Source: an uncultured Bacillota bacterium
GTDB taxonomy: Bacteria; Bacillota; Clostridia; Christensenellales; UBA1242
Assembly (NCBI GenBank): GCA_946495675.1
Contig: CAMMDQ010000003.1
Span: 64,453-128,452 of the forward strand
DNA: 64,000 nt
Direction of reading: 5' to 3'
Shown piece after piece: positions 16,619 to 16,777 of the stretch. A model generated the notes under the pieces. It was not told where the DNA came from, made no database searches, and was given only the letters and a program-made list of their open reading frames with translations. The number at the start of each line of letters is the position of its first letter. The stretch's first letter is position 1. Position numbers and translations under genes: made by a program.

Positions 16619-16650
16619 AAAAAACAAAAATAGCAACCTTGACTGGTTGC
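16619..16650 (-). terminator. Attenuator terminator upstream of leuS
   Basis: GCAACC-AGTCAA-GGTTGC followed by TATTTTTGTTTTTT, directly before the leuS SD. Confidence 0.85.
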
Positions 16651-16704
16651 ACTTAAAAAAATTTTTTTTAGCACAACCAAAACTTGTGCCACTATTGTGG
16701 ACAC
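16644..16704 (-). promoter_or_regulatory. Mutually exclusive leader hairpins (A:B/C:D antitermination versus B:C/D:E termination)
   Basis: GTG-T-CCAC:GTGGCAC (16704-16686); GCACAA:TTGTGC (16689-16671); TGGTTGTGC:GTGCAACCA (16679-16644). Confidence 0.7.
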
Positions 16705-16708
16705 CAAA

Positions 16709-16741
16709 TCAAAGTAGTGCTAAAAGAATGTTTGTTTTCAT
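16709..16741 (-). CDS. Leucine leader peptide MKTNILLALL
   Basis: ATG AAA ACA AAC ATT CTT TTA GCA CTA CTT TGA upstream of the leuS attenuator; not in ORF track. Confidence 0.75.
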   Translation of the reverse strand: MKTNILLALL

Positions 16742-16747
16742 GCTTTG

Positions 16748-16777
16748 ATAATAGCATAATTGCCTTGCTTTTGTCAA
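16748..16777 (-). promoter_or_regulatory. Sigma-A promoter of the leuS leader
   Basis: TTGACA (16777-16772), 18-nt spacer, TATTAT (16753-16748); 6 nt before the leader-peptide ATG. Confidence 0.85.

Follow-up and report, generated by a model that had tools for sequence, protein, structure and literature searches.

The window analysed here is a 64,000-nucleotide (nt) stretch of DNA from an uncultured Bacillota bacterium, and all coordinates given below are positions within it. Its leuS gene, encoding leucyl-tRNA synthetase, is preceded by a leader (minus strand of 16777-16619) that carries a promoter, a short upstream open reading frame (uORF) rich in leucine codons, and a mutually exclusive antiterminator and intrinsic terminator. 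The features of the locus are as follows.

16827..16846, minus strand: intrinsic terminator of the upstream gene, AAAAGGGC TTGC GCCCTTTT (sequence, terminator scan)
16772..16777, minus strand: -35 element TTGACA (promoter scan; TTGACA or TTGACT in 26/26 leaders)
16748..16753, minus strand: -10 element TATTAT with TG just upstream (promoter scan; comparison of 26 leaders)
16709..16741, minus strand: uORF MKTNILLALL, ATG AAA ACA AAC ATT CTT TTA GCA CTA CTT TGA; transcription predicted to start at the A of the ATG or beside it
16717..16725, minus strand: segment 0, TTTTAGCAC, Leu-Ala codons inside the uORF, complementary to segment C and its 3' flank, GTGCTAAAA
16697..16704, minus strand: segment A, GTGTCCAC, pairs with B; would lie under a ribosome parked at the stop codon
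16684..16692, minus strand: segment B, GTGGCACAA, pairs with A or C
16671..16678, minus strand: segment C, GGTTGTGC, nearly invariant; its partners are segment 0, B or D
16645..16652, minus strand: segment D, GTGCAACC, pairs with C (antiterminator) or E (terminator)
16633..16638, minus strand: segment E, GGTTGC, followed by a U-rich tract (16626..16638 with the tract); terminator GCAACC-N6-GGTTGC
16613..16618, minus strand: Shine-Dalgarno sequence AAGGAG of leuS (sequence)
14199..16607, minus strand: leuS, leucyl-tRNA synthetase (TIGR00396, E 8.5e-296), ATG at 16607

Conservation of the promoter and the leucine uORF

The sequence features named in a first-pass annotation of this DNA were all found again on the minus strand, where it had placed them. 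The leuS promoter, scoring 11/12, has a spacer of 18 nt between its -35 and -10 elements, and six nucleotides (CAAAGC) separate the -10 element from the ATG of the uORF. The scans detected two promoter-like sites compared to 0.7 expected in shuffled sequences, and two terminator-like sites compared to 0.6 expected. Since the gene upstream has a terminator of its own, leuS probably depends on the leader promoter.

A scan for leuS relatives yielded 80 loci, and the 16 distinct leaders among them, including that of the window, were aligned to build the covariance model R1. R1 was then used to search genomes at three ranks: genus (112), order (397) and family (311). Among the family genomes, 27 contained one match each, and all of the matches were located before aminoacyl-tRNA synthetase genes (26 leuS, 1 hisS). 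After the removal of duplicates, 26 distinct leuS leaders were obtained, which have the promoter, the position of the uORF, the Leu codons and the pairing in common. As far as sequence comparison can tell, this conservation is decisive against a chance arrangement.

The distance between the -10 element and the ATG is 6 nt in 24/26 leaders (L164, with TAATAT-6-ATG, was included after re-reading by eye), which is what a transcription start at the A of the ATG would give. This conserved layout supports the proposal of the first-pass annotation that the uORF is essentially leaderless, with transcription probably starting at or beside its first nucleotide. When the leaderless promoter pattern was searched for in the window's own genome, eight matches were found, and a Leu uORF was present only at leuS. 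A leaderless-looking uORF, MKVEVSTSHHSIIALNW, was also observed in this genome upstream of an apparent infC gene (L149, C2:85679-85716).

The uORF of the window comprises 10 codons, four of them for leucine; the chance of four Leu in nine codons alone is p ~0.005, which is weak evidence by itself. Most of the leader uORFs end with L-A-L-L or L-A-L-L-L before the stop codon, while the preceding residues are variable. Lack of conservation of the Leu codons in relatives had been named as a refuting outcome; instead, a Leu codon was found directly after Ala in 21/21 non-redundant leaders. It is represented by five synonymous codons of both the TTR and CTN types (TTG 7, CTA 6, TTA 4, CTT 3, CTG 1), a pattern that suggests selection for the amino acid itself. 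Leucine accounts for 41% of the leader codons, compared to a background of 8.9% in 34 long open reading frames of the window, and Leu codons uncommon in the genome are favoured in the leaders (TTA 37% vs 13%, CTA 21% vs 5%).

An attenuator acting through RNA alone or through a bound protein, with an incidental reading frame whose translation is irrelevant, could account for the unusual invariance of segment C, which exceeds what pairing alone may need. However, the reading frame, start codon, stop codon (TAA, TGA or TAG) and leucine identity are all kept through synonymous substitution, and the amino acid encoded by the short uORF fits the downstream gene both at leuS (Leu codons in 26 leaders) and at hisS (His codons in one). 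We consider such an attenuator highly improbable.

Alternative pairing and the position of a modelled ribosome

The first-pass annotation had described the RNA beyond the uORF as five successively pairing segments. Comparison of the relatives revealed that this A/B/C/D/E logic is conserved, but that a sixth segment, segment 0 inside the uORF, had been overlooked. The pair counts given here were taken from the 16-row alignment or by codon-anchored counting; a 26-row MAFFT alignment misplaces the uORF frame between groups. The covariation analysis proposed at the outset was carried out: helices A:B and D:E covary, and C:D is kept through variation. In A:B, coupled changes were found between relatives (e.g. 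CCAC/GTGG, CCG/CGG, CCTA/TAGG), and swapped partners equalled the native ones in 7/20000 permutations, compared to 0/20000 in the same test for D:E. Helix C:D is paired in 98.4% of cells though most of its pairs vary, with pairing retained in 22/24 variant cells and a double change from G-C to A-U in L042. Copies of the C motif were also sought elsewhere in the genus, and besides leuS only chance-like matches in coding or unrelated sequence were found.

The core of segment 0, TTAGCAC, is complementary to GTGCTAA, a stretch made up of C and its 3' flank. With the Ala codon as the anchor, 0:C is paired in 124/126 cells, compared to at most 64% in slid controls, and its variable pair occurs as U-A, U-G, C-G and A-U. 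The pairing with C is also stronger for the native uORFs than for random recodings with synonymous codons (combined p ~4e-10, with relatedness ignored). This pairing of the uORF with C explains the conserved Ala codon.

For folding, the ribosome was represented by a mask whose downstream edge lay 10 nt beyond the A-site codon. The mean terminator probability over 22 leaders was 0.77 with no ribosome, 0.36 with a stall on the codon before Ala, and 0.69 with the ribosome at the stop codon. When the mask was slid along the leaders, the median free-energy cost of the terminator was low, then high, then low again, with a predicted readthrough window that opens about 10 nt before the end of the stop codon, extends to about 5 nt past it and closes at +6. 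In RNA made up to the point before D, the mean numbers of C pairs formed with 0 and with B were 6.4 and 0.2 with no ribosome, 0.5 and 1.4 with a stall before Ala, and 0 and 5.9 with the ribosome at the stop codon. C in this RNA was thus predicted to be held by 0, mostly free, or held by B, respectively, and this applied to nearly all leaders, that of the window among them.

We interpret the leader as a ribosome-mediated transcription attenuator that would match the supply of LeuS to the charging of leucyl-tRNA, and assign this reading a probability of about 0.86. It is based on the conserved parts, the retained Leu codons, the covariation or pair-preserving change in A:B, C:D, D:E and 0:C, and the footprint modelling; what we infer is where transcription starts, that the uORF is translated and that the leader responds to leucine. 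Transcription would begin at or beside the ATG of the 10-codon Leu uORF, which would be read as a leaderless messenger RNA (mRNA), and the outcome would be set by which partner holds segment C in the nascent RNA. Three states are envisaged: (i) with no ribosome, segment 0 would pair with C, A:B would form inside that rod and D:E would form, causing termination; (ii) with a ribosome stalled on Leu codons, 0 would be covered and A exposed, so that A:B would occupy B, C:D would form and leuS would be transcribed; and (iii) with a ribosome at the stop codon, reached when Leu-tRNA is sufficient, A would be covered, B would take C and D:E would form, again causing termination. Following release of the ribosome from the stop codon, state (i) could re-form. 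The ribosome-mediated, Leu-codon-dependent attenuation of leuS claimed in the first-pass annotation is thus supported by conservation and, in most relatives, by masked folding.

That annotation had not included the uORF:C helix. In such a five-segment model a stall would leave A free, and untranslated RNA would read through by default. All of its helices (A:B, B:C, C:D and D:E) are present, and A:B, C:D and D:E are backed by comparison. However, free RNA that extends as far as C is predicted to pair C with the uORF, and most full leaders free of a ribosome favour the terminator, which makes termination rather than readthrough the expected default. Moreover, the uORF:C helix is 98% paired across the leaders, its native form being better than synonymous recodings, and where a change breaks a Leu codon (TCA in L054, AAA in L164), the C strand of the helix carries a matching base at the middle pair. 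The model without this helix appears unlikely.

Several observations weigh against the six-segment attenuator. At the stop codon, the leader of the window and those of L036, L038-L040 and L042 favour C:D at equilibrium (terminator probability 0-0.06), and this preference was only partly removed in the window and its closest kin when the A8/T7 extension was left unpaired. State (iii) in these leaders would therefore depend on the order of folding or on ribosome release: for termination, either B:C would have to form before D is made, or release would have to be followed by re-pairing of 0 with C. The stop-codon state of the window is a real gap in the case. Little or no switching was predicted for L037, L043, L164 and L179. 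The switch logic of the first-pass annotation is reproduced by masked folding in most leaders, in which the position of the ribosome is predicted to select the fold, but not in the stop-codon state of the window, where C:D persists at equilibrium. As for the pairing, tests of B:C covariation and the C:D swap test had no power because C is nearly invariant, the A-shuffle control gave only p ~0.02, and L045 lacks a proper B. It should be noted that the leaders are related, so neither the cell counts nor the permutation values are independent.

The hisS leader and the relationship to T-boxes

The R1 match before hisS (TIGR00442) was found in a single genome, G516, which represents another genus of the family (L180/L185, C137:2760-2867, minus strand). 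This leader appears to share the leaderless layout, with a uORF encoding MKTLNILHHHK, and contains A:B (GTGTCG/CGACAC), C:D (GGTGGTGT/ACATCACC) and a D:E terminator. With masking, the terminator probability was 0.63-0.97 for mask edges up to 24, 0.01 for edges 28-40, where the ribosome would be stalled on one or other of the three His codons, and 0.95-0.97 for edges 44-52 (the stop codon). The repeated match between amino acid and gene argues against coincidence, and the occurrence of the same layout with His codons suggests a reusable design and not an isolated case. Two congeners carry His leader peptides led by a Shine-Dalgarno sequence before hisS (MKTIYFLHHHI and MKNISFLHHHIK; L182:1263-1298 and L184:1210-1248), with a terminator-like hairpin; these are not leaderless. 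No convincing His uORFs were identified before hisS in the window's own genus or in g30.

The strong amino acid conservation of the C-terminal LALL or LALLL could also be explained if L-A-L-L acted as an arrest peptide recognised in the ribosome tunnel, perhaps together with a small molecule, instead of as codons reporting on tRNA charging. The peptide has only about 10 residues, though, its Ala codon is accounted for by RNA pairing to C, and genome-uncommon codons are preferred. In addition, L179 (MKSLNLLLTI) lacks the motif and keeps the Leu codons, and the hisS leader has His codons in their place. An arrest peptide is thus a very unlikely explanation.

Aminoacyl-tRNA synthetase genes in Clostridia are normally T-box controlled, and five T-boxes were found in the window's own genome, before pheS, tyrS, thrS, ileS and glyS. 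At the leuS locus, the T-box covariance model (RF00230) gave no match at either gathering or relaxed thresholds, which bears out the absence of a T-box reported in the first-pass annotation. Other Rfam families, Leu_leader included, gave nothing above the gathering score on the leuS leader, only chance-level matches. Two points could be raised in favour of a T-box or a degenerate one: segment C contains UGGU, as found in the T-box bulge, and T-boxes lie upstream of several of the nearest Bacilli leuS loci. The UGGU was ruled out as a site binding the tRNA end: in L042 it is replaced by UGAU and D changes to compensate, which shows that UGGU is dispensable. Together with the lack of a match at the locus, this makes a T-box of either kind an almost certainly wrong explanation.

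The T-boxes at the nearest Bacilli leuS loci make a switch from T-box to leader peptide likely at leuS, with its direction inferred. In the LeuS tree, 24 of the 26 leaders belong to one clade of 31 rows, seven members of which lack a leader. The remaining two, L170 and L176, stand before leuS genes whose products belong to quite different LeuS lineages, suggesting that the gene was replaced behind a kept leader. Taken together, we think it somewhat probable that these leaders form a distinct class of leaderless relay attenuators, which this family of gut Clostridia would use for aminoacyl-tRNA synthetases of more than one kind. In this class, the uORF codons, B and D would compete for an 8-nt segment C, an RNA of ~130 nt would tell apart the absence of a ribosome, a stalled ribosome and a terminating one, and the attenuator would have replaced a T-box at leuS.

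Comparison with known systems and gene neighbourhood

The enterobacterial his leader uses a chain of alternating helices, as does the present leader, and segments 1, 2, 3 and 4 of the enterobacterial trp leader correspond to 0, C, D and E. Three differences from the trp and his leaders are apparent: C is placed ~30 nt downstream of the stop codon, where a terminating ribosome cannot reach it; an A:B/B:C relay is added, which would carry the signal of the terminating ribosome to C; and the A-E chain is odd-numbered, so that a stalled ribosome leaves A free. In Sinorhizobium meliloti, the attenuated trpL transcript starts at the ATG of the leader ORF, as is predicted for the present leader, but this is an alphaproteobacterial system serving trp biosynthesis (PMC7298713).

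Ribosome-mediated attenuation of leuS from a leaderless uORF had been described in the first-pass annotation as not known in Firmicutes. This framing is too strong with regard to the parts of such a system. Leucine-dependent attenuation of the ilv-leu operon has experimental support in Staphylococcus aureus (PMC5794164), and a related attenuator of Listeria has been reviewed (PMC6123439). These share with the present leader the Firmicutes host and a leucine-dependent leader peptide, and differ in serving a biosynthesis operon, in having a 26-residue peptide with its own ribosome binding site, and in their RNA architecture (PMC5794164, PMC6123439). According to the accessible text of a 2010 screen, His leader peptides are predicted before hisS* and hisZ in Bacilli (PMC2965389). 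Here too a leader peptide takes the place of a T-box at a hisS-family gene in Firmicutes, whereas the amino acid is histidine, the hosts are Bacilli and, in that text, on which the comparison of architecture is based, the leaders are not described as leaderless.

The accessible part of a 2005 survey predicts leuS attenuators in Streptomyces and places no Firmicutes aminoacyl-tRNA synthetase gene under classical attenuation (PMC1262725). By their description there, the Streptomyces leaders resemble the present one in combining a Leu leader peptide, an antiterminator and a terminator before leuS, but they belong to Actinobacteria and are not stated to be leaderless. A literature search that missed most subscription papers found no leaderless leuS attenuator in Clostridia, and the combination of a leaderless attenuator at leuS with this relay appears to be new.

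Such a system would widen the range of classical leader-peptide attenuation to include an essential tRNA synthetase gene of Clostridia, by means of a leaderless uORF, and would be a clean case in nature of one sensor, the T-box, giving way to another, the leader peptide. The RNA is compact, its states are amenable to in vitro testing, and it bears on a possible regulatory use of 70S initiation on leaderless mRNAs in small-genome gut bacteria.

Directly upstream of leuS lies a gene for a collagen-like protein with GPTGPTG repeats (16864-18384, minus strand), with its own terminator at the end. In many members of the genus (L025, L012, L009 and others), an L10 leader (RF00557) was found within a few kb of leuS, which in these genomes appears to be located near the rplJ operon.
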